From Neoasaia chiangmaiensis (GTDB taxonomy: Bacteria; Pseudomonadota; Alphaproteobacteria; Acetobacterales; Acetobacteraceae): a stretch of 64,000 bases of DNA. Positions 1-8,225 of this stretch are shown piece by piece. The stretch is from assembly GCF_002005465.1 (NCBI RefSeq), contig NZ_CP014691.1:2178501-2242500 (forward strand), written 5' to 3'. The position numbers and the translations under genes were made by a program. Numbering within the stretch: the stretch's first letter is position 1; each line of letters opens with the position of its first letter. The notes below the pieces were generated by a model. The model was not told the DNA's origin. It worked only from the letters and a program-made list of their open reading frames with translations, and made no database searches.

Positions 1-1351
1 GATCGTCAACAACACCGCCAGGGACCGGGAGGTCAGCGTCCACGGCCTGACACTGACGACGAACGCGAGCGGCCCGAACCAACTGACATCGGACAGCTAT
101 CATCTCAAGCTGGCGGGCGGCCAGCAGAACTATATCATAATGCAGCCGCAGTGGTGGACGACGCTGATTAGCGGCGACAACCTGTATGTCGGCCAGCCGC
201 AGGGACCGGCGCTGACGGCCAATACAAGTTCTGTCCTGTTCCAGGTGGCGCAGTCCACGAACACCGGGAGCGCGACATGGGCGTCCCACCACATGATCCG
301 GCTGATGGCGTGGAACAAACGTAACACCGCAGACGATGGGACGAGCTATACCAATATTACGACGAACCTCGGCGTGGGCGTCGATGGCACAGCCAGCACC
401 GTGCCAAGCCAGATACAGGGACACCTTGAGTTCACGCCGGCCGCCAACCCCTACGGGCTGTCAATCTGCTCGAGCGGGCAAAGCGGCGCGACGTGCAGCA
501 TCCAGCTCGATAACTATGGCAACCCCAACGTCATCCAGCAACTCAACCTCACAAAAGGCGGCTGGCTTAACTTCGCCGACAAGTACGGCAACGAAGGCGG
601 CTGGATACAGCCGCCAAATGGTTCGGATACGACCGGGGCGACGCCTGTCAATGAGGTGGATGTTCACTTCCCGGCGGATAACGGTCTGCTCAACATTCTC
701 GGCACCGCAAGGACATACGCGCTATCGGTAAGCGCGGCCGCGTATAATCCAGCCACGACAAGCGGTTCTACCACGACAGCGGCGTCGGTGTCCGGCCAAG
801 GCACCTACCAGACGTGGAACCAACTGCACTCCGGTTCAGCCAACACGGAAATCATCAACATCGCCCCGAGCGGTGTCACCGGGGGATTTTCATTCTATGC
901 CGTCAACTCCGGCGTGGACCCCACGGCAGCCACGGCCCTGTTGAGCATGTCAGCACAGAACGCGCGTTTCAGCACGGATGTGTTCGTCGGCAACGGCAAG
1001 GCGATCCATCTGCCGGATGCGCAAGGTGGCGACGTTTACATCTACAATGACGGGGAAAGCACGGTTGGGTTTGGTGCCGTCAAGCTGCAATTTGGCTCGG
1101 ATGCTTCCGTGAGCGCCAACGGCACACAATGGAATTTCGCCGGGCCGATTGCCGTGCCGGAAACAGAGGTATCCGGAGCCGTCCAGACACTGTCCCAGAT
1201 CAAGGCCGCAACGCACTTCGAGGGCGACGAGGTGTGGTGCCACGATTGCCTCAACAGCGGACAGGCGACCGGCAAAGGAACGGGACGGAAGGTCTGGCGG
1301 GATAGCGCCGGAACGTGGCGCACCGGAGATGGCGCGGTAGCCGCGAACTGA
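1..1351 (+). CDS. Phage tail-fibre-like structural protein, C-terminal part (5' end outside window)
   Basis: The frame is open from base 2 to the stop at 1349-1351, so at least 449 residues are seen and the N-terminus lies to the left of the window. The sequence is rich in Gly, Ser, Thr, Asn and Ala with beta-like repeats, as in phage receptor-binding fibres. Its last roughly 45 residues (EGDEVWCHDC then GTGRKVWRDSAGTWRTGDG) follow a pattern common at the C-terminus of tail fibres: a Cys-containing strand, a GTG turn and a Trp-containing final strand. It is followed directly by a strong terminator and then by lysis-like genes. The exact virion role is inferred. I see no peptidase or chaperone motif for C-terminal autoprocessing. 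Confidence 0.65.
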   Translation, partial: IVNNTARDREVSVHGLTLTTNASGPNQLTSDSYHLKLAGGQQNYIIMQPQWWTTLISGDNLYVGQPQGPALTANTSSVLFQVAQSTNTGSATWASHHMIRLMAWNKRNTADDGTSYTNITTNLGVGVDGTASTVPSQIQGHLEFTPAANPYGLSICSSGQSGATCSIQLDNYGNPNVIQQLNLTKGGWLNFADKYGNEGGWIQPPNGSDTTGATPVNEVDVHFPADNGLLNILGTARTYALSVSAAAYNPATTSGSTTTAASVSGQGTYQTWNQLHSGSANTEIINIAPSGVTGGFSFYAVNSGVDPTAATALLSMSAQNARFSTDVFVGNGKAIHLPDAQGGDVYIYNDGESTVGFGAVKLQFGSDASVSANGTQWNFAGPIAVPETEVSGAVQTLSQIKAATHFEGDEVWCHDCLNSGQATGKGTGRKVWRDSAGTWRTGDGAVAAN

Positions 1352-1356
1352 CATCC

Positions 1357-1381
1357 AGCCGCCCCATCCGGGCGGCTTTTT
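1357..1381 (+). terminator. Rho-independent terminator after the tail-fibre gene
   Basis: A perfect 7-bp stem (AGCCGCC at 1357-1363 with GGCGGCT at 1371-1377), a 7-nt loop and a run of five T (1377-1381) begin 6 bp after the stop codon. It should separate late structural transcription from the lysis-like genes. The T-run leads directly into the repeated CATATCTGGAG segment. Confidence 0.8.
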
Positions 1382-1392
1382 CATATCTGGAG
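1371..1392 (+). repeat. Terminator-tail plus Shine-Dalgarno repeat, copy 1 (copy 2 at 3228-3249)
   Basis: Twenty-one of 22 bases are shared with 3228-3249: GGCGG, one variable base, TTTTT, then CATATCTGGAG. Each copy closes a terminator hairpin and then supplies a TCTGGAG ribosome binding site 7 bp before an ATG (1400 and 3257). The two hairpins have different left arms and loops, so the shared part is the distal arm, T-run and ribosome binding site. Confidence 0.8.
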
Positions 1393-1399
1393 GATCGCC

Positions 1400-1429
1400 A
1401 TGCGCGACCTGATCGGGTGCGCGGCATGA
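1400..1429 (+). CDS. Possible 9-residue leader peptide coupled to the next gene
   Basis: The good Shine-Dalgarno TCTGGAGGA of the repeated segment lies just before the ATG at 1400, not before the larger gene. The ATG opens a 9-codon frame (MRDLIGCAA) whose TGA overlaps the ATG of the 139-codon gene at 1426 in an ATGA junction. This looks like a translated leader that hands ribosomes to the membrane protein. The peptide itself may have no function. Ribosome profiling would be needed to confirm it. Confidence 0.35.
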   Translation: MRDLIGCAA

Positions 1430-1842
1430 TCCGGCGCGCTCAGGAATATCTGCGTCTCATCATCCGACGCGAGCACTGGTGGGCCGAAGCATGGTCCGCG
1501 ATCGCGCTCCTGACCTTCGGGCTGGTATCGTTGCGCCGAACGCATGACGCGTTGCATGCGACACCCTCGACCCACAGCTTCTTCATCCTCATGCCCAACG
1601 GCCTGTGGCAATGCCTGTTGATCCTGGGGGGCGCCTATCAGCTCGCGGCGCTGTCGTTCGAGACGCGCTGGTGGCGTTGGTGGCGCGGCAGTGCTGCGGC
1701 CCTGGCGGCCTTCTTCTCGGCATGGGTCGCCGTCAGCCAGGTCATCTACACCTTCGGCTTCAACCCGATCGTTCTCTATGTCGTGGCCTGGTGCGGCGTG
1801 AACCTGTTCGCTCTCAGTCGCGCCTTCGGAGGGCTCCGATGA
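1426..1842 (+). CDS. Small phage multi-span membrane protein, possibly holin-like
   Basis: This 138-residue protein has a basic, Trp-containing N-terminus followed by three or four hydrophobic segments (about residues 19-35, 45-70, 80-105 and 107-128). I do not recognise a specific family. Placement after the tail-fibre terminator and before a coiled-coil membrane protein and a muralytic-like protein fits a lysis cassette, which makes a holin or antiholin role plausible but unproven. The start at 1426 is chosen because it overlaps the stop of a short SD-led reading frame (ATGA). An upstream in-frame start at 1315 would lie inside the tail-fibre gene and the terminator. The gene ends one base before the next start codon at 1844, suggesting coupled translation. 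Confidence 0.6.
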   Translation: MIRRAQEYLRLIIRREHWWAEAWSAIALLTFGLVSLRRTHDALHATPSTHSFFILMPNGLWQCLLILGGAYQLAALSFETRWWRWWRGSAAALAAFFSAWVAVSQVIYTFGFNPIVLYVVAWCGVNLFALSRAFGGLR

Positions 1843-1843
1843 C

Positions 1844-2170
1844 ATGTCGTTTCTCTCCGAACTGTGGCCTTCGCTCCAGCCCTATGTAGCGCAACATCCG
1901 TGGCTGGCGCCGGTCATCGCGGGCTGCCTTGTCTGCTCTTTCGTCCTGCGGGGACTTTCTGTCGCCTGGGCACAGTATCGAAACCAGCAGCATCAGGCCG
2001 AGGAATTCGACCACACGCAGCAAATGGACCTGCTGAGAGCGCTGCGCGACCAGCGCGACGCCGCCATGCGGGACCTGACCAGCGAACGCAAGGCCCACGA
2101 AGCGACACGCCGCCGCGCCGACCAGGCCGAGGATGCACTGCGCGCCTTCCAAGCGAGAACGCCATCATGA
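1844..2170 (+). CDS. Small membrane-anchored coiled-coil protein (i-spanin-like)
   Basis: The 108-residue product has one N-terminal membrane segment (about residues 20-42, PVIAGCLVCSFVLRGLSVAW). After it comes a long charged, heptad-like stretch rich in Arg, Glu, Gln and Ala (about 48-103). This one-span plus coiled-coil layout is the layout of phage Rz-type inner-membrane spanins, but I see no embedded Rz1 lipoprotein frame, so the call is architectural only. It begins one base after the preceding stop, and its TGA overlaps the ATG of the next gene (ATGA at 2167-2170), as expected for a compact lysis operon. Confidence 0.5.
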   Translation: MSFLSELWPSLQPYVAQHPWLAPVIAGCLVCSFVLRGLSVAWAQYRNQQHQAEEFDHTQQMDLLRALRDQRDAAMRDLTSERKAHEATRRRADQAEDALRAFQARTPS

Positions 2171-2649
2171 ACTACCCGATCATCGTCGGTCAGGTGAAGC
2201 ACCAGTGGGTCATTCCGACCCTGGGGCGCCTGCCGGCCTACCTGAACTCACTGTCCTCGACCAACCTCGTGACTGGCACCGGTGCCGACGAAAGCCAGTG
2301 GTTCCAGTATGTGAACCAGAACGGCGGTCCTGCGCTCGGTCCCTGGAACATGGAGCCCGACACGCACGATGACTGCTGGCGCAACTTCATCCGCTACCGG
2401 CCCGACATCCAGAAGGCGCTGAACGAGATCCTTGGCGGCTCGACGCCGGATGCCGGGCTGATGTCGTTCCGGATGGATTATGCGATCGCCATGTGCCGGG
2501 TGAAATATTTCCGCTCGCCGCTGGCCCTGCCGGCCGCAGGAGATGCCGCAGGGCTGAGCCGGTATCACAAGGTCGCCTACAACTCGTCCCTCGGCGCGGC
2601 CGATCCGGTCGCTGACCTACCTTACTACCAGGCTGCCATCGCCGCTTGA
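2167..2649 (+). CDS. Phage protein resembling virion/lysis muralytic proteins
   Basis: The 160-residue protein carries the pattern ESQW (Glu42) ... GGPALGPWNMEPDTHDD (53-69), followed by a helical part with AIAMCRVKYFRSP and a LP-GD--GL-RY-K--YN segment. From memory of phage proteins this layout (Glu near a Trp or His, then GPALG--MEP-THDD, then A-A--R--Y-R--P-LP) recurs in small proteins annotated as hypothetical or transglycosylase-like. Glu42 is the obvious candidate acid, but the assignment to peptidoglycan cleavage is inference. There is no signal peptide. The ATG overlaps the stop of the spanin-like gene. The long upstream in-frame extension to 1864 is rejected because it is antiphase to that gene. 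Confidence 0.5.
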   Translation: MNYPIIVGQVKHQWVIPTLGRLPAYLNSLSSTNLVTGTGADESQWFQYVNQNGGPALGPWNMEPDTHDDCWRNFIRYRPDIQKALNEILGGSTPDAGLMSFRMDYAIAMCRVKYFRSPLALPAAGDAAGLSRYHKVAYNSSLGAADPVADLPYYQAAIAA

Positions 2650-2669
2650 CGGCGCGCCTTTGGGCGCTG

Positions 2670-2701
2670 ATCAGGCGCCGCATCCTGCTTCGCCGCCTGA
2701 T
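2670..2701. repeat. Inverted repeat between lysis-like genes
   Basis: ATCAGGCG (2670-2677) and CGCCTGAT (2694-2701) form a perfect 8-bp stem with a 16-nt loop in the 87-bp gap before the gene at 2737. No T-run follows, so it is not a classical terminator. It could be an RNA-stability or attenuation element. Confidence 0.35.
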
Positions 2702-2736
2702 GGGCTGGCATTCCCGATAAGAGGAAATCTAGAAAC

Positions 2737-3180
2737 ATGGACCCGACGCAAATTGCGACGGATGCGGGCCTGCCGCAGCTCGTCACCTACATCCTACAAT
2801 ATGCCGTCGGTGTCGGCTGGCTACCGGCGAAGACGATGGCCGCGATCGTCTCGCTTTATGCGTCCCTCGTGACCATCGCGACTCATATCGGCCCGTATCT
2901 CAACCCGCCACCAGCGCAGCGTCCAGCCTGGACCGTGACCGGATCCTCAAAGCTGGTGCGATTCGGCGCGCGAGTCGGATGCGCTCTGCGCCTGGCGTTC
3001 TGGTGGGCTTGGCTCGTTCTCTACCGGGTTGTCACCTTCCTGCGCCGCGATGTGAAGGCGACAGCCAATGTCCGGCAGATCGGCCGCAGTGCCGCGATGG
3101 TGCCGGTCGACAAGCGCGGATCCGCACGAAGCGAGATTGCAGACAGCCTCGGCATCCCGCGAGACCAGACCAAGCCCTGA
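2737..3180 (+). CDS. Phage membrane protein with two hydrophobic regions, possibly holin
   Basis: This 147-residue product has a hydrophobic region at about residues 15-52 (ILQYAVGVGWLPAKTMAAIVSLYASLVTIATHI, given here as a region) and a second at about 78-100 (Trp-rich, ALRLAFWWAWLVLYRVVTFL). It ends in a basic, polar C-terminal tail of about 45 residues. The arrangement fits holin-like or phage accessory membrane proteins; no named family is recognised. Upstream AAGAGGAAA at about 2718-2726 provides a ribosome binding site. It is followed by the second terminator/Shine-Dalgarno repeat. With the genes at 1426, 1844 and 2167 it makes a four-gene lysis-like block. Confidence 0.5.
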   Translation: MDPTQIATDAGLPQLVTYILQYAVGVGWLPAKTMAAIVSLYASLVTIATHIGPYLNPPPAQRPAWTVTGSSKLVRFGARVGCALRLAFWWAWLVLYRVVTFLRRDVKATANVRQIGRSAAMVPVDKRGSARSEIADSLGIPRDQTKP

Positions 3181-3216
3181 ACCGCGACTTGCGATTTGGC
3201 GCAAGTTCGCACGCTG

Positions 3217-3238
3217 ACCGCCCTTGAGGCGGTTTTTT
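3217..3238 (+). terminator. Rho-independent terminator after the lysis-like block
   Basis: ACCGCC (3217-3222) pairs with GGCGGT (3228-3233) around a 5-nt loop and is followed by T3233-T3238. It lies between the membrane protein ending at 3180 and the lipoprotein starting at 3257, and it runs into copy 2 of the repeated segment. Confidence 0.8.
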
Positions 3239-3249
3239 CATATCTGGAG
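3228..3249 (+). repeat. Terminator-tail plus Shine-Dalgarno repeat, copy 2
   Basis: This copy matches 1371-1392 at 21 of 22 positions. Here the TCTGGAG directly serves the ATG of the lipoprotein gene at 3257, with 7-bp spacing. Confidence 0.8.
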
Positions 3250-3256
3250 CATTCCC

Positions 3257-3763
3257 ATGAAATTTGCACGCCGCTTCCTCGCTGCCTTTGCTGCACTCGC
3301 GCTGACCGTATCGGTCTCGGCCTGCTCGACCTCTGGCAGCACGACCACCTTCAGCACGGCCGAGCTGAACAACGATGCGACGGCCATCGCCTATGCGGTG
3401 CAGGCGATCGAGAACATTCCCGGGATCGAGAGCCATCTCACGGCCGCGCAGAAAACGCAGTTCGTCGGACTGGTCGAGCAGATCAAGAGCGTGACCGCGC
3501 AAATTGCCGCCAACTCCAACGGTTCGGTTTCGTTCGACACCGGCAAGGACTGGGCGAAGCATCTCGGCGACGACCTGCAGACGCTGCTCTCGATCGCAAC
3601 CCCGATCGTTCAGGCCTACGACCCCACGGCCGCCGGATACATGAGCACGGTCTCGCAGATGATCCCGCTGGTCGAAGCCCTGGCCGGTGTCGCGTCTGTC
3701 GAGGCGAAAGCACTGCCGGATAACGCGGCGCAGGTGCGGGCGCGCATCTATCAGGGCGTCTGA
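3257..3763 (+). CDS. Prophage-encoded lipoprotein, helical
   Basis: The 168-residue protein begins with a basic n-region, a hydrophobic core and a lipobox VSAC (Cys at about residue 23), so it should be exported and lipidated. The mature part is Ala/Thr/Ser-rich and predicted helical, with no recognised domain. The start at 3257 is set by the TCTGGAG repeat 7 bp upstream and by the signal peptide. Its TGA (3761-3763) overlaps the ATG (3763-3765) of a 25-residue membrane peptide. That peptide in turn overlaps a papain-fold gene, so the three are almost certainly co-translated. A lipoprotein in a prophage late region could be a virion-unrelated cargo gene (for example superinfection exclusion) or an outer-membrane lysis factor; the sequence does not decide. 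Confidence 0.65.
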   Translation: MKFARRFLAAFAALALTVSVSACSTSGSTTTFSTAELNNDATAIAYAVQAIENIPGIESHLTAAQKTQFVGLVEQIKSVTAQIAANSNGSVSFDTGKDWAKHLGDDLQTLLSIATPIVQAYDPTAAGYMSTVSQMIPLVEALAGVASVEAKALPDNAAQVRARIYQGV

Positions 3764-3840
3764 TGGACGAGACCAGCGCGGCGGGTTTTCTGCTTCTCGT
3801 CGCGTGCTGCTTCCTTCTTTTCTGGAGACGCTATCGATGA
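3763..3840 (+). CDS. 25-residue single-span membrane microprotein
   Basis: The frame reads MDETSAAG, then a stretch of 13 hydrophobic residues with two Cys (FLLLVACCFLLFW), then RRYR and stop. It starts inside the preceding stop (TGATG at 3761-3765) and ends inside the next start (ATGA at 3837-3840), so it fills exactly the space between two genes. An acidic head, a short Leu/Phe/Cys membrane span and a basic tail suggest an inner-membrane peptide with N-out/C-in topology. The tight packing at both ends argues for a real gene rather than chance. Function is unknown; a lysis, toxin or adaptor peptide are all possible. Confidence 0.55.
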   Translation: MDETSAAGFLLLVACCFLLFWRRYR

Positions 3841-4586
3841 GCGTACGCAAGCTCGGCAAACGCCCAGCGCGGCACGACGCGCGCACCTTCCGTCTCGGTG
3901 CGCCACTCGCTGCGCGGTTGATCGTGCCACCGACTGCCGTCAACTGGGCACCGAACGATGTCTGGCCGGTGTGGTGCAACGATACGATCGGCTGTTGCAC
4001 GCAGGTATCCGTCGCCAGTGCGATTCGCACCTGGACGGGTGCCGCGCAGGCGCCGGTCCTGCTGTCGGATGCCCAGGTGATCGACAATTATAGCGCGGCG
4101 AGCGGTTACGTGCCGGGCCAGGCGCAGACCGATCAGGGCGGTATCGAGCTCGACGTGCTCAACCGCTGGATTCGCGAGGGCTACGCACGGCCGGGTCAGC
4201 CAGGCCGTGACTACCTGACAGCGTTCGGTGTCGTTGACGTTCGCGACCGGCAGTCTGTCATGCGCGCGATCGCCGCATTGGGCGGTCTTTATATCGGGGT
4301 GCAGATCCCGAACTACATTATGCAGACGGGTGGCGATTGGGCGCTGAACGCGGCCGGCGATCAGACGGTGGTTGGCGGCCATGCCATCTGGTTGCACGGC
4401 TACGATTCGGACTGGCTGCACTTCAACACGTGGGGCGAGCGCAAGCGCATGTCCTGGGACTGGCTGACCACCTATTGCGACGAGGCCTACGGGCTTGTCA
4501 GCCGGCAGAATTGGCTGGGAATCAATGCCCTGTCGCCGAATGCCGAGGACGTGGATGCGCTGGTCGCCGAGATGCGGGCGGCATGA
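3837..4586 (+). CDS. Papain-fold cysteine-peptidase-like phage protein
   Basis: The 249-residue product shows the ordered papain-like triad: NDTIGCCTQVS (Cys54 as likely nucleophile, Cys53 beside it), VVGGHAIWLHGY (His182) and HFNTWG (Asn197). It has no signal peptide. I recognise this general layout in phage and genomic-island proteins of unknown substrate but cannot name a family. The ATG at 3837 overlaps the stop of the 25-residue peptide, and its TGA overlaps the ATG of the next lipoprotein (4583-4586). It may be a protease, amidase or transglutaminase-like enzyme. The genetic coupling to two lipoproteins suggests a joint envelope-linked role; that is inference. Confidence 0.6.
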   Translation: MSVRKLGKRPARHDARTFRLGAPLAARLIVPPTAVNWAPNDVWPVWCNDTIGCCTQVSVASAIRTWTGAAQAPVLLSDAQVIDNYSAASGYVPGQAQTDQGGIELDVLNRWIREGYARPGQPGRDYLTAFGVVDVRDRQSVMRAIAALGGLYIGVQIPNYIMQTGGDWALNAAGDQTVVGGHAIWLHGYDSDWLHFNTWGERKRMSWDWLTTYCDEAYGLVSRQNWLGINALSPNAEDVDALVAEMRAA

Positions 4587-5218
4587 TCTGGCGTTTCGGT
4601 TTACAGATACGCGCCGTTCCCGGTCTTTTCGCGCTGTTCGGGTTTACAGGCTGCGCTCTTGCGCCCAGTCCCGCGACCACGATCAGTGCCGCGATCGCGG
4701 GCGTGCAATCCGATCTGACGGCCGCGCACGTCGTCAGCACATCGCACGCTGGCGACTGGGATTTGGCGCAGGTCGCGCGCTTTGATGCCAATGTCCTGGC
4801 GTTGCAATGTTCGCAAGAGACCAGCGATCCGGTCGTGGCGATGATCGCCGGGCCGGTGACGATGAGCCTGACCGGGAGTTTCAGCCAGTCAGGCTCGTTT
4901 TCCGTCTCGTCACTGACCACCATGCCGGTGTTTGGCATCGGCGCCGATGCCAGTCGAACGCGTGGGCAGGGATTGAGCCTGCCGGTGCAGTTCGTGCCGC
5001 TGGCTTCGCTGCCGGATGCAGAGATGGCGCGGGAGGTCGAGTATGCCGGGACGCTACTGTCGCAGAATGATGAAGTGCGGCATGCGATGGGGGCGCGGAT
5101 CGATGCCGATCGGGCGGCGCTTGCGTCTCGCGTCGAGCTGCTGCTTCAGGACTATGGCCTGGCGAGTTGCCCGAAGCACGGAGAGATTGCGCCGTTTGTT
5201 GGCGCAGAGCGGAGATAA
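4583..5218 (+). CDS. Second prophage lipoprotein
   Basis: The 211-residue protein starts with a hydrophobic segment ending in lipobox FTGC (Cys24 as counted from the ATG), predicting lipidation. The mature part is Ala/Ser/Thr-rich with a short serine-rich stretch (FSQSGSFSVSSL) and a helical C-terminal third containing a possible Cys near the end. No known domain is recognised. It shares the ATGA junction with the papain-fold gene and ends the coupled module. An AT-rich spacer and an apparently different gene set follow, so it probably is the last gene of this transcription unit. Confidence 0.6.
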   Translation: MIWRFGLQIRAVPGLFALFGFTGCALAPSPATTISAAIAGVQSDLTAAHVVSTSHAGDWDLAQVARFDANVLALQCSQETSDPVVAMIAGPVTMSLTGSFSQSGSFSVSSLTTMPVFGIGADASRTRGQGLSLPVQFVPLASLPDAEMAREVEYAGTLLSQNDEVRHAMGARIDADRAALASRVELLLQDYGLASCPKHGEIAPFVGAERR

Positions 5219-5279
5219 ATAAGAAATCATATTGTCATTTGGCGAAATTGTTTCTTCTATATGATAAAGGAGAAACAGC

Positions 5280-5549
5280 TTGTCCGAGTCGCAGCACATT
5301 TTATTTCGTCTAAACGAAGAAGAGCGAGAGCACCTGCGGTCCCAAATCGGAATAGGTGGCTTTCAGCAGAAATTTTTTGCTGACAAGAATCGGCTCGATG
5401 CCGAAACTGGAGAAATTCGTCTCACTGATTGCGAGCTCGGAAAAATTATCCGATATTGCAGCTACGGCCCAGGCGGCTTCCAAAACGAACTCCGTCGCAT
5501 CTTCAAACGCTCAATTGACGATCTTCTGCGGGGCCAAAGAGAGAAATAA
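5280..5549 (+). CDS. Hypothetical 89-residue protein in AT-rich prophage segment
   Basis: The frame opens with TTG at 5280 behind a good AAAGGAG ribosome binding site (5266-5272). The protein is charged and probably helical (LNEEEREHLR, DCELGKIIRYC, FQNELRRIFKRSIDDLL), small and soluble, with no family I can name. The 60-bp leader and the gene are clearly more AT-rich than the neighbouring phage genes, as expected for a late-acquired moron. It ends one base before the convergent methyltransferase gene. A DNA- or protein-binding accessory role is possible but unsupported. Confidence 0.5.
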   Translation: MSESQHILFRLNEEEREHLRSQIGIGGFQQKFFADKNRLDAETGEIRLTDCELGKIIRYCSYGPGGFQNELRRIFKRSIDDLLRGQREK

Positions 5550-6146
5550 TTAGAGACGCCGGAAGATCGTGATGCCCCGGAAGCGGTGATTGGTGCTTTT
5601 CCACATGCCAATCGTTGCCTCCACGGCAAACGCGTCCTTGCGATACATTGGCAAGACTTGATCTAGCCAAACGACATGCGTCCCTGAACGTAGACCTTGC
5701 AGCGCTCGCATGACAGAGTTCCTTTTCACCATACTGGTGCCGTAGTGCTCGCAATCCTCGACTGAATACGGTGGGTCAGCCAACACGATATCGTATTGGT
5801 CGAGCGGAACAGTCAGGAGTGTCTGCGCGTCATCTAGGTAAGTGGGCGAGACAGCGGGATTGATATCCACTGTATCGCCGGGGAACGTCACCAGATCGAC
5901 TTTCCCGCTGAAAACGTGCAGGGCGCGCTTCTTGTCAGGGAACAGAGCCTTGATTCGTCGCAGATAGGTTGCCGGATAACCACCGTAATAGGTAGATTTT
6001 ACCCTATAGTCGTTGCCCATGATCCAAGTTCCGACGACGCGGCCATCTTCTCCCATGAACAGATTGCGAGGAAATCCCGTCGCTTTGACGTAATGATCAA
6101 TTCGACTTTCCCAAGAGAGTGTCGGGGAGGATGGCATGTAATTCAT
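5550..6146 (-). CDS. Phage DNA methyltransferase (DPPY class)
   Basis: The 198-residue protein has the amino-methyltransferase catalytic motif DPPYS (about residues 140-144) and, about 45 residues before it, HVFSGKVD. The latter fits the S-adenosylmethionine-binding motif I in the order I then IV. This predicts exocyclic amino methylation of A or C. No separate target-recognition domain is visible and the protein is short, as in phage-encoded orphan methyltransferases. No restriction enzyme is adjacent, so a self-protection or anti-restriction role is more likely than a restriction-modification pair. No convincing ribosome binding site precedes the first ATG or the ATG three codons later, so the true start is uncertain. 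The segment is AT-richer than its surroundings. Confidence 0.7.
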   Translation of the reverse strand: MNYMPSSPTLSWESRIDHYVKATGFPRNLFMGEDGRVVGTWIMGNDYRVKSTYYGGYPATYLRRIKALFPDKKRALHVFSGKVDLVTFPGDTVDINPAVSPTYLDDAQTLLTVPLDQYDIVLADPPYSVEDCEHYGTSMVKRNSVMRALQGLRSGTHVVWLDQVLPMYRKDAFAVEATIGMWKSTNHRFRGITIFRRL

Positions 6147-6310
6147 GCTGCGAATCTAGTACGTCGAAAAACGAATGGATAGGGGCCGTGCATCAGTCAT
6201 GCAGCTTCTGCCATGTACTGCATGCAGATCAAACTGGCATGCCGATTCCTTTGTATCGCTATGTTGGCTGTCAGTTCGGCACGCCTTACTATTTTCAACT
6301 CACCTAGATT

Positions 6311-7570
6311 CTACCAACTCCGAACCCCCACGATCTCACTCAACCTCGTCGTATAGCGCGCCGACAGCAATGCCTGGCGCGTTTCCCACGTCTGCTGAAT
6401 GCCCGTCGAGGCGGTCCTTACCATGCCGCGACCGTAGCGGGCGTTGATTATGTCCATCGCTGCCATCACGCGTTCGGACATCTCCGGGTTCTGGCTGGCA
6501 AACATGACGGCCTGCATGCCGGCCGGCGACAGGTCGGTCAGGATTACGCCCGCCTTGAAGTAGCGGTGTCCCGGTCGCCATAGCTTTGCGAGCAGGCGCG
6601 TCGCACGCTTCACCAGCGCCCGCGTATCATTGGTTGGTTCGATCGCGGATGAATGTTGGTTGGAATACCAGGGATCGCCGTTGTGAGGGTTGGTCTGCAA
6701 AAACACCGACATATGCCCGGCATAGAGCCCATCTGATCGAAGCTTCTCCGCCGCGCGCGATGCATAATGCGCCACAGCCTCGCGCATGTCCGACCATTCC
6801 ATCACCAGGCGCCCGAAGGTGCGTGTCGCGGCCACACTCTTGCGGGCTGACGCGACGTCGGACAGTGGAAGGCACGATTGCCCACGCAGTTCGGCCTGGA
6901 TGCGACCGCCCACGACCGTCAGCATGTCACGCGTCTTGCGTGGATCCATCGCAATGAAATCGGCAATCGTCTGGATGCCCTCCCGGCGCAGTTTCTCTAC
7001 TGTCTGGCGCCCGATACCCCAGACGTCGCCGATCTCCGTCCGGGCATACCAGACCGCGCGGACCGCCGGGTCGGTGAGGTCGCAGAGCCCGTCCAGTTCG
7101 GCATGATCCTTGGCGAGGCCATTCGCCAGTTTGGCAATTGTCTTCGTCGGGCCCCAGCCGACGCAGGTGGGAATCTTCGCCTCATGCAATACGGCCTGTT
7201 GAATCCGGCGGCTCAGGCCATGCAGATCAGCACCCATGCCGGTGTAGTCGAGGAACATCTCATCAATCGAGTAAGGCTCGACCCGTGGCACATGCCCGCT
7301 CAGGACCTGAAACATGCGACGGCTCATATCGGCATAGAGCGCGTAGTTGCTCGAATACCAGACCACGGGCTTCGTCTCCGGGCGCTTGCGGGCCATATGC
7401 CACGGGTCGCCCATCTTGATGCCGATCAGCTTGGCCTCGCGCGTGCGGGCAATGGCGCAACCGTCGTTGTTGCTGAGCACGACGACCGGCAGGCGGCGCA
7501 GGCGCGGCTCGAAAGCGCGCTGACAGGAGCAGTAGAAGCTATTGCCGTCGATGAGCGCGAAGAGAGGCAT
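6311..7570 (-). CDS. umuC: Y-family DNA polymerase V catalytic subunit UmuC
   Basis: The 419-residue product starts MPLFALIDGNSFYCSC, with the metal-binding Asp8 and YCSC of UmuC-type enzymes. Further on it has VVVLSNNDGCAIARTREAK, and then EPYSIDEMFLD with the catalytic Asp-Glu pair. A helix-hairpin-helix region (GIGRQTVEKL) follows, and the C-terminal TASTGIQQTWETRQALLSARYTTRL segment (residues given here as an extent) is typical of UmuC. It performs translesion synthesis as UmuD'2C. The start at 7570 is set by the TAATG junction with umuD and by the family N-terminus; the longer frame to 7678 is rejected. It is transcribed with umuD from a LexA-type promoter at 7983-8011. All catalytic acids appear intact. 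Confidence 0.92.
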   Translation of the reverse strand: MPLFALIDGNSFYCSCQRAFEPRLRRLPVVVLSNNDGCAIARTREAKLIGIKMGDPWHMARKRPETKPVVWYSSNYALYADMSRRMFQVLSGHVPRVEPYSIDEMFLDYTGMGADLHGLSRRIQQAVLHEAKIPTCVGWGPTKTIAKLANGLAKDHAELDGLCDLTDPAVRAVWYARTEIGDVWGIGRQTVEKLRREGIQTIADFIAMDPRKTRDMLTVVGGRIQAELRGQSCLPLSDVASARKSVAATRTFGRLVMEWSDMREAVAHYASRAAEKLRSDGLYAGHMSVFLQTNPHNGDPWYSNQHSSAIEPTNDTRALVKRATRLLAKLWRPGHRYFKAGVILTDLSPAGMQAVMFASQNPEMSERVMAAMDIINARYGRGMVRTASTGIQQTWETRQALLSARYTTRLSEIVGVRSW

Positions 7571-7956
7571 TAGACATCGGTGCGGACAAGGCCGGACACA
7601 ACCGCCCAGATTGAGACGTCTGTCGCCTCGTCCACGGCAATATCGGCACTGCCCGGCGTCGAGGTGCGCAGCCACCATTCGCCGTTGCGCTGGGTCAGTT
7701 CGCAGACGCGCAGTTCGTCGCCGACACTGGCAACGACCACGACGCCGGGACGAGGGGCAATCGCTGCATCGACCACAAGGATATCGCCATGCCGGATCGA
7801 CCGGTTGAGCAAGACATCGCCCTCAACGCGGACCGGGTAGCGGCTGGGTCGGCGCAGATCCAGCGCCTCGCTCATCAGGTCGATCGTCCCTTCAATGTCG
7901 TCCGCCGCCGGTGACGCGAATCCCGTCGTCCTGTCGCCCTGATATGCCATGCTCAT
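7570..7956 (-). CDS. umuD: UmuD-like subunit lacking the autoprotease catalytic residues
   Basis: The 128-residue product matches UmuD through GFASPAADDIE and GDILVVDAAI. Three things differ from E. coli UmuD. The N-terminal arm before the Gly of the cleavage site is only 11 residues. The nucleophile position of the GDSM motif reads GDVL (Val48 for Ser60). The Lys97 position reads Cys85 (RVCEL). It should therefore be unable to cleave itself and may act as a pre-formed UmuD', as reported for phage P1 HumD. A GGGAGG ribosome binding site precedes the ATG, and LexA and promoter sites lie 24-55 bp upstream. The downstream stop overlaps the umuC ATG. Confidence 0.85.
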   Translation of the reverse strand: MSMAYQGDRTTGFASPAADDIEGTIDLMSEALDLRRPSRYPVRVEGDVLLNRSIRHGDILVVDAAIAPRPGVVVVASVGDELRVCELTQRNGEWWLRTSTPGSADIAVDEATDVSIWAVVSGLVRTDV

Positions 7957-7979
7957 CGTTGTTGCCTCCCTCAGTGCGG

Positions 7980-7994
7980 GAACATAACGAGAAC
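7980..7994 (-). promoter_or_regulatory. LexA (SOS) operator, alphaproteobacterial type
   Basis: On the minus strand the site reads GTTC-TCGTTAT-GTTC (GAAC-N7-GAAC on plus), an exact match to the direct-repeat GTTC-N7-GTTC LexA box of alphaproteobacteria. It lies 24 bp upstream of the umuD ATG and covers the -10 region, so LexA binding should block transcription until DNA damage. Confidence 0.9.
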
Positions 7995-8011
7995 ATGGCA
8001 GCGTGTGTCAA
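7983..8011 (-). promoter_or_regulatory. SOS promoter of umuDC
   Basis: Minus-strand -35 TTGACA (8006-8011) is a perfect consensus. A 17-bp spacer leads to GTTATG (7983-7988), or TTATGT one base on, as the weaker -10. The LexA box overlaps the -10, consistent with repression under non-SOS conditions. Confidence 0.75.
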
Positions 8012-8118
8012 GCTGGTTGTTGTTTATCTGTTTGGCATTTGGCCACCAGCTACTGGAGGAACTCAAGCTATGGGGAAGGATTTTTATCTGCAAACCTCGC
8101 CCTTAGATCAAGCAATCC

Positions 8119-8157
8119 AGCGAGTCGTTTTGCGCAGTTTATTGCCAACGACTCGCT
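8119..8157. repeat. Perfect 11-bp inverted repeat near the prophage end
   Basis: AGCGAGTCGTT (8119-8129) and AACGACTCGCT (8147-8157) flank a 17-nt AT-rich loop, 24 bp left of the tRNA fragment. There is no T-run. It could be a binding site for integration/excision proteins or a transcript end; position favours an attachment-site role. Confidence 0.5.
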
Positions 8158-8180
8158 GAAATCTTAGGAAAACCTGGCTC

Positions 8181-8225
8181 CTTCTAAGCTGTGGGTCGCT
8201 GGTTCGAATCCAGCAGGGCGCGCCA
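8181..8225 (+). tRNA. 3' half of tRNA-Arg(TCT): prophage attachment site remnant
   Basis: CTTCTAA (anticodon loop with TCT) is followed by GCTGT, a variable region, the T-arm GCTGG-TTCGAAT-CCAGC, acceptor strand AGGGCGC, discriminator G and CCA (8223-8225). The sequence left of 8181 cannot form the 5' anticodon stem, D-arm or acceptor, so this is not a working tRNA. It is the duplicated 3' half left at one end by a tRNA-targeting integrase. The intact gene, expected to start GCGCCC, should lie at the left prophage end. Confidence 0.8.

Follow-up and report, generated by a model that had tools for sequence, protein, structure and literature searches.

A gene at the right end of a prophage in Neoasaia chiangmaiensis probably encodes a ready-made (constitutive) subunit of the UmuD' type for a translesion polymerase resembling pol V, which would be controlled by LexA and free of control by self-cleavage. 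We analyzed a stretch of 64,000 nucleotides (hereafter the window; G000:C1:2178501-2242500) from a genome of 3.41 Mb in a single contig. Self-cleavage of the window protein appears impossible, judging from its sequence. Many relatives conserve this form next to an error-prone polymerase that is intact, and for this reason the protein looks ready-made and not broken. The features of the window are as follows.

1-8,211, no strand: right-hand end of a prophage with a total length of about 51 kb, the remainder lying left of the window (repeats and gene content)
6,311-7,570, minus strand: UmuC, 419 aa, with IMS, IMS_C and DUF4113 (domain matches)
7,570-7,956, minus strand: UmuD'-like subunit without the protease dyad, 128 aa, span including the stop codon
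7,702-7,704, minus strand: Cys85 (RVCEL), column of catalytic Lys97 (alignment with E. coli UmuD)
7,813-7,815, minus strand: Val48 (GDVL), column of catalytic Ser60 (alignment with E. coli UmuD)
7,918-7,926, minus strand: former cleavage site Thr11-Gly12-Phe13, elsewhere Ala/Cys-Gly-Phe (alignment with E. coli UmuD)
7,924-7,956, minus strand: short N-terminal arm MSMAYQGDRTT, residues 1-11, with YxGxxTT kept across the clade
7,965-7,970, minus strand: likely ribosome-binding site GGGAGG, 8 nt 5' of the ATG (direct reading)
7,980-7,994, minus strand: predicted LexA box GTTCTCGTTATGTTC, an exact GTTCN7GTTC (sequence match)
8,181-8,211, plus strand: right attachment repeat of 31 bases, part of the 3' half of tRNA-Arg(TCT) (repeat search)

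The umuD reading frame matched Pfam Peptidase_S24 with 51.3 bits (cut-off 23.3). Alignment with E. coli UmuD placed Val48 at Ser60 and Cys85 at Lys97, in agreement with a sequence-only reading that had noted GDVL for GDSM and a cysteine at the lysine position. Cys24-Gly25 of E. coli UmuD aligned to Thr11-Gly12, with 11 residues N-terminal of Gly12. This arm length had also been claimed and was reproduced by the alignment; the substitution to Thr-Gly is an added observation. Compared with an autoproteolytic UmuD, the protein has the S24/UmuD' fold and sequence and lacks both the Ser-Lys dyad and the Ala/Cys-Gly site. It scored below the cut-offs of the NCBIfam models for UmuD (NF007621, 80.2 bits, cut-off 110) and HumD (NF051876, 33.0 bits, cut-off 120; P1 HumD scored 221.5). 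No ATG, GTG or TTG occurs in the 17 open in-frame codons upstream of the umuD ATG, which rules out a start-site error as well as a longer arm begun at one of the usual start codons.

The window protein has a UmuD'-like fold according to structure prediction. The AlphaFold model, built with 27 aligned sequences, had a pLDDT of 76.8, with ten-residue means of 81-92 from residue 41 onward and values below 50 for residues 1-7 and 9-22. Its best PDB fold match was UmuD' 1umu (E 2.2e-7; TM 0.65 by query length and 0.77 by target length), and the first matches comprised UmuD' (1umu, 1ay9) and UmuD on RecA (8gmt). A sequence search of PDB chains likewise gave UmuD and UmuD' as the best matches. The earlier proposal that the rest of the UmuD' fold is retained is thus borne out by the Pfam score and by the fold match.

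The umuD stop and the umuC start share one base (TAATG). Beyond its three domain matches, the window UmuC carries the catalytic residues D6, Y11, D101 and E102 (E. coli numbers), as the sequence-only reading had held for its catalytic acids. UmuC with these acids lies directly beside UmuD, and the promoter region holds a predicted LexA site, as in a pol V operon. The perfect LexA box noted before is indeed an exact GTTCTCGTTATGTTC; it begins 38 bp 5' of the umuD ATG, and the end coordinate of 8,011 given earlier for this feature takes it in. The GTTCN7GTTC pattern alone is not significant, with three occurrences in the window against 1.33 expected and at least three in 17 of 100 shuffles. A box lies 20-60 bp before the start in 50 of 64 relatives found with sequence patterns (43 of 56 distinct proteins), compared with 0.2% of shuffled 60-bp upstream windows. 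Among the 17 loci from the search without a pattern, nine have a perfect box close to the start and eight lack one nearby. The pattern also occurs just 5' of the genome's own lexA frame (L001:1120-1134).

The prophage location had been proposed earlier and could be delimited with repeats. The second copy of the 31-base repeat lies 51 kb leftward, within an intact tRNA-Arg(TCT) (G000:C1:2135552-2135582). Between the repeats are genes for terminase, portal, head protease, major head protein (capsid), tape measure, baseplate and tail, and an integrase-like gene adjoins the left repeat (PF00589, 25.7 bits, below the cut-off of 27.1). Given the repeats and the phage genes between them, the umuD'C operon is the final cargo before the right attachment site of the prophage. 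Two DNA methyltransferase-like genes were also observed in the prophage (window 5,550-6,146 and L154:5486-6979).

We searched 299 genomes of the family with the protein and without any pattern, and 40 had matches at E <=0.001. Matches above 100 bits came from 17 genomes (18 places), and 12 genomes had matches of 41-61 bits; the remainder were one fragment (G217) and ten genomes with weaker matches. In the upper set, the lysine was absent from all 17 of the 18 places examined, the window's own included. In the lower set, with one place taken per genome, serine, lysine and an Ala/Cys-Gly site were all present in 12 of 12. None of these 29 family genomes (17 dead, 12 live; full-protein matches scoring above 40 bits) had both a dead and a live UmuD. 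By a simple rule for choosing start codons, 9-22 residues precede the glycine in the clade (17 loci) and 24-34 in 11 of the 12 live relatives, the other having 8 (L031).

Pattern-led scans enlarged the clade. A scan of named genomes that required [RNE]TTGF[AV]SPA gave 54 loci, mostly from Gluconobacter, Komagataeibacter, Novacetimonas, Acetobacter, Neokomagataea, Acidocella, Acidiphilium, Roseomonas and Pseudoroseomonas. The clade accounts for 49 of these (L039-L087, some incomplete), and the other five are two further fragments and three far relatives. A few of the loci come from metagenome bins that bear the names of other groups. A scan of IMG/VR viral contigs with TTGF[AV]SPA or GD[IV][LI][IV][VA]D[AT]A gave 41 loci, 17 of them in the clade (L093-L109). 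At least 18 clade-like plasmid records (H27-H43, H56) were among the matches listed, and two were examined (L142, L143). The public label of the 18 plasmid proteins is 'S24 family peptidase' in 14 cases and 'hypothetical protein' in four; the dyad is absent in the two examined. Two plasmid records filed under Acidithiobacillus ferrooxidans (H28 and H32; CP084173, CP084174) match with an identity equal to that of Acidiphilium plasmids, and a mixed culture or a mislabelled record is possible. A Sphingomonas plasmid, pDS5, carries a shortened dead-type UmuD that runs in frame into the UmuC start (L148; frame from 2270, 237 aa open).

The clade thus occurs on viral contigs, plasmids and genome contigs. 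Pooling gave 80 full-length loci, which overlap between collections and comprise 61 distinct proteins including the window's, mostly from Acetobacteraceae; the 60 others show 39-82% identity. Rows below 80 bits, without a start or shorter than 340 nt were dropped before this count, and L086 and L108 were kept although they match only over the first 77-96 residues. Searches indicate that the clade is centered on Acetobacteraceae, since all matches in the class sample scored at most 70 bits except the window's.

Across the 61 proteins, the lysine column holds Ala (32), Cys (21), Gly (6), Val (1) and Asp (1), and never Lys. The serine column holds Ala (37), Thr (14), Ser (5), Gly (2), Val (1), Glu (1) and Pro (1). 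We aligned the proteins with UmuD and HumD and read the two catalytic columns. A shifted active site was rejected from the lysine column of this alignment, in which lysine is missing from 61 of 61 members, among them the five that carry serine (L018, L019, L053, L066 and L086, the last a broken gene). The loss of the protease, first described for this one gene, is therefore real as regards the dyad and is a state of the whole clade rather than an individual loss.

The claim that most of the arm is gone holds for its length, as only 11 residues are left, but the remnant is conserved. Y5 is kept in 59 of the 61 proteins, G7 in 60, T10 in 61, T11 in 60, G12 in 61 and F13 in 61; the scan patterns inflate the values for T10-P16, and the Y5, G7, serine and lysine columns were not demanded by them. 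The mean entropy per alignment column is 1.4 bits. The residue pair at the former cleavage site is Thr-Gly throughout, except for one Ser-Gly. This conservation, together with a length about 11 residues greater than that of the UmuD' N-terminus, suggests that the arm does something.

Nearly all controls from outside the family retained the dyad. We took the best-scoring UmuD-like loci from the phylum (29 loci, 398 genomes) and the class (28 loci, 385 genomes), and serine and lysine were kept in 56 of the 57, with cysteine for serine in the remaining one. Because these are best-scoring samples and live UmuDs made up most of the phylum query, rarer dead forms could be missed. The cleavage site was AG or CG in 57 of 57. 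Cysteine in place of the nucleophile, with lysine kept, was observed in a Yoonia plasmid UmuD (L146:1929-2363, EGDCL) and in one of the sampled genomes (L203, GNCML). A Methylotenera UmuD (L088:2025-2387) has the TTGFASPA arm yet keeps serine and lysine, and is possibly intermediate between live and dead forms.

Some far UmuD relatives with about 25-40% identity and TTGFASPA were found on IMG/VR contigs, some longer than 300 kb (L110-L126, L128, L129, L131, L132), and in Spirosoma (L090, L091). Those shown in the alignment lack serine at the nucleophile column and have arginine at the lysine column, and a umuC match lies downstream in 19 of 21 far viral loci, the other two stopping at the contig edge. 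They are apparently other protease-dead lineages, as read from an alignment made uncertain by a shortened loop and from a scan that favored TTGF[AV]SPA.

Codon comparison indicated that close pairs within the clade evolve under constraint. Of 322 usable pairs (dS 0.05-1.2), the 60 closest (dN <0.1) had a median dN/dS of 0.058 (range 0.014-0.266), with 54 at or below 0.1 and six above. The median over all 322 pairs was 0.383 and the maximum 0.794; distant pairs, whose synonymous sites are near saturation, are not usable.

The UmuC partners follow the same division. A UmuC match starts 2-30 bases past the first base of the umuD stop in 16 of the 17 family-set loci, which were found without a pattern; the remaining locus, L020, has no UmuC in the 1.5 kb downstream. 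We also observed that L020/L081, L085 and L108 lack a downstream UmuC match despite 1.5-7 kb of the same contig, and these may be orphan dead UmuDs or broken operons. Among 44 UmuC partners of dead UmuDs, D6, Y11 and E102 were present in all 44 and D101 in 43. A careful tree of 62 UmuC proteins grouped the 44 as a single clade with support of 100/100. This tree omitted L088 and the far phage rows, the far phage groups having long branches in a quick tree. The quick tree was thinned from 109 to 73 rows at 95% likeness and left out L005, L029, L082, L086, L087, L090, L091, L102, L127 and any protein below 330 aa. It suggested, through long branches, three changes of state, HumD aside. The last residue of UmuC is aromatic (Trp, Phe or Tyr) in 39 of the 44 clade partners, compared with 0 of 19 partners of live UmuDs and 2 of 10 far phage partners. 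In a published model of pol V, the C-terminal tail of UmuC is described as binding UmuD' (PMC11791011).

The simplest reading of these results is a constitutive UmuD' gated by LexA. In E. coli, RecA-stimulated self-cleavage delays pol V. There, UmuC is reported to be held at the membrane, and its release to require RecA-stimulated cleavage of UmuD to UmuD' (PMC4552617). The E. coli arm is also reported to bear a ClpX recognition sequence, and cleavage to remove a Lon signal (PMC5342242); most of this arm is absent from the window protein. For the prophage operon, we propose that DNA damage would cause RecA to inactivate LexA and the umuD'C operon to be transcribed, and that both proteins would assemble as UmuD'2C without RecA-stimulated self-cleavage. 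LexA would be the main gate, and RecA is probably still part of the active mutasome, where it is reported to be needed (PMC6511836, PMC12926913). The arm probably sits in the cleft of UmuC: the UmuD' N-terminus has been modeled by the UmuC active site (PMC11791011), and the longer arm of the clade might, on this model, reach into it. The dimerization with a host UmuD that had also been envisaged finds no partner in this genome, in which PF00717 matches only LexA and the umuD gene itself and no host UmuD was found.

Several other readings were weighed. The arm may itself have taken over regulation, with YxGxxTTGF plugging the UmuC cleft and RecA or DNA moving it, such that a reversible gate replaces the irreversible cut. 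This is possible rather than likely, and it is compatible with a ready-made subunit. The near-invariance of Y5, G7, T10, T11, G12 and F13 against the column mean, and the aromatic UmuC end that is common in the clade and rare or missing elsewhere, speak for such a gate. Coevolution of the arm with the UmuC active site did not reach significance, as just two of six clade-specific UmuC columns are near the active site (P = 0.12), and the UmuC changes fall on one branch and so are not independent events. Extended to the whole clade, this idea would mean that the self-cleavage checkpoint was replaced: the arm (YxGxxTTGF), conserved and uncut, would reach into the cleft of UmuC and act with the new aromatic end of UmuC as a built-in gate that is reversible, LexA and RecA binding would be all that switches the mutagenic polymerase, and the same kind of change would have taken place in other phage lineages. 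We put this forward as a conjecture that is rather doubtful as a whole. An uncuttable UmuD could also keep UmuC permanently inhibited, as a non-mutagenic checkpoint subunit resembling E. coli UmuD K97A, with which UmuC is reported to stay at the membrane (PMC4552617). However, the K97A state had the full arm of 24 residues, compared with the 9-22 that precede the glycine in the 17 clade loci under the start rule. The engineered delta1-17 form is described as UmuD'-like in binding a pol III alpha fragment and as weakly mutagenic (PMC5342242), and 43-44 of the 44 UmuC partners retain the active-site residues. We consider a checkpoint subunit unlikely.

Cleavage in trans, by which another S24 protease (here LexA) would cut at Thr-Gly and yield UmuD', has a precedent in the intermolecular cleavage reported for UmuD-like proteins. 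It is nevertheless very improbable here: besides umuD, PF00717 matches only LexA in the genome, and 60 of the 61 clade members have Thr-Gly at the site and one has Ser-Gly, versus Ala/Cys-Gly in 57 of 57 others. The missing catalytic residues, and the broken or fragmentary state of L029, L045, L085-L087 and L089, are what a decaying and functionless prophage gene could produce. Against decay stand the 60 other distinct proteins, the low dN/dS of close pairs, the operon overlap and the retained LexA box, and this explanation has next to no probability in our judgment. The main warning against a simply free-running ready-made subunit comes by analogy from delta1-17, which is only weakly mutagenic when uncut; an uncut arm could hinder the polymerase in the window protein as well.

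In the textbook view, RecA-driven cleavage of UmuD serves as a safety delay ahead of mutagenic repair. A group of bacteria, with their phages and plasmids, here carries an operon in which that step appears impossible, which makes them a natural test of the purpose of cleavage, and the clade supplies uncut arms that selection has maintained alongside UmuC. The operon may be a source of damage-induced mutation in acetic-acid bacteria. With the peptidase dyad absent, 'S24 family peptidase' also seems a misleading label for proteins of the clade.

No published description of the dead-UmuD clade was recognized in the portion of the literature searched, and the main text of an Acetobacter prophage survey (PMC9379143) does not contain the words umu, error-prone, SOS, polymerase V or Y-family. 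Compared with E. coli UmuD/UmuD' (pol V; S24), the window protein shares the fold, the GF-x-SPA region, the operon with umuC and, by sequence, the SOS box. It differs from UmuD in having no Ser-Lys dyad, a Thr-Gly site and an arm of 11 residues instead of 24, and its arm is about 11 residues longer than that of UmuD'. The laboratory-made UmuD delta1-17 (UmuD 18) also has a short uncleaved arm, with seven residues before the glycine. It is reported to bind the pol III alpha fragment like UmuD' and, uncleaved, to give low but detectable UV mutagenesis (PMC5342242). In contrast, the arm of the window protein is natural and conserved, and the tail of its partner UmuC is changed. UmuDAb of Acinetobacter is likewise described as a UmuD homologue with altered regulation, but it is reported to repress genes through an N-terminal domain, whereas the N-terminal part of the window protein is just 11 residues.

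The parallel drawn before was with P1 HumD. HumD is described as a shorter form of UmuD that is active from the start (PMC7092418), and it complements UmuD' according to a note in its sequence record. We compared the HumD-like proteins of P1, N15 (gp26), phiKO2 (gp23), HK140, HK639, yong1, pAEv1818 and G19. They resemble the window protein as phage-borne UmuD'-like proteins with little or no arm for removal; a LexA site is annotated in P1 and phiKO2, and the gene adjoins an integrase or attP in HK639, HK140 and pAEv1818. The eight begin 1-4 residues before the glycine, compared with 11 in the window protein, and no umuC is annotated near their genes within the stretches examined, whereas the window umuC overlaps its umuD. 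Serine is found in the nucleophile column of one (P1) and lysine in its column in four, P1 having both letters. On these sequence comparisons, the HumD parallel stands as an analogy, and HumD is not of the same family as the window protein. A phage UmuD with no need of a cut was already known from HumD; new here is the combination of a kept arm, a lost dyad and an accompanying umuC.
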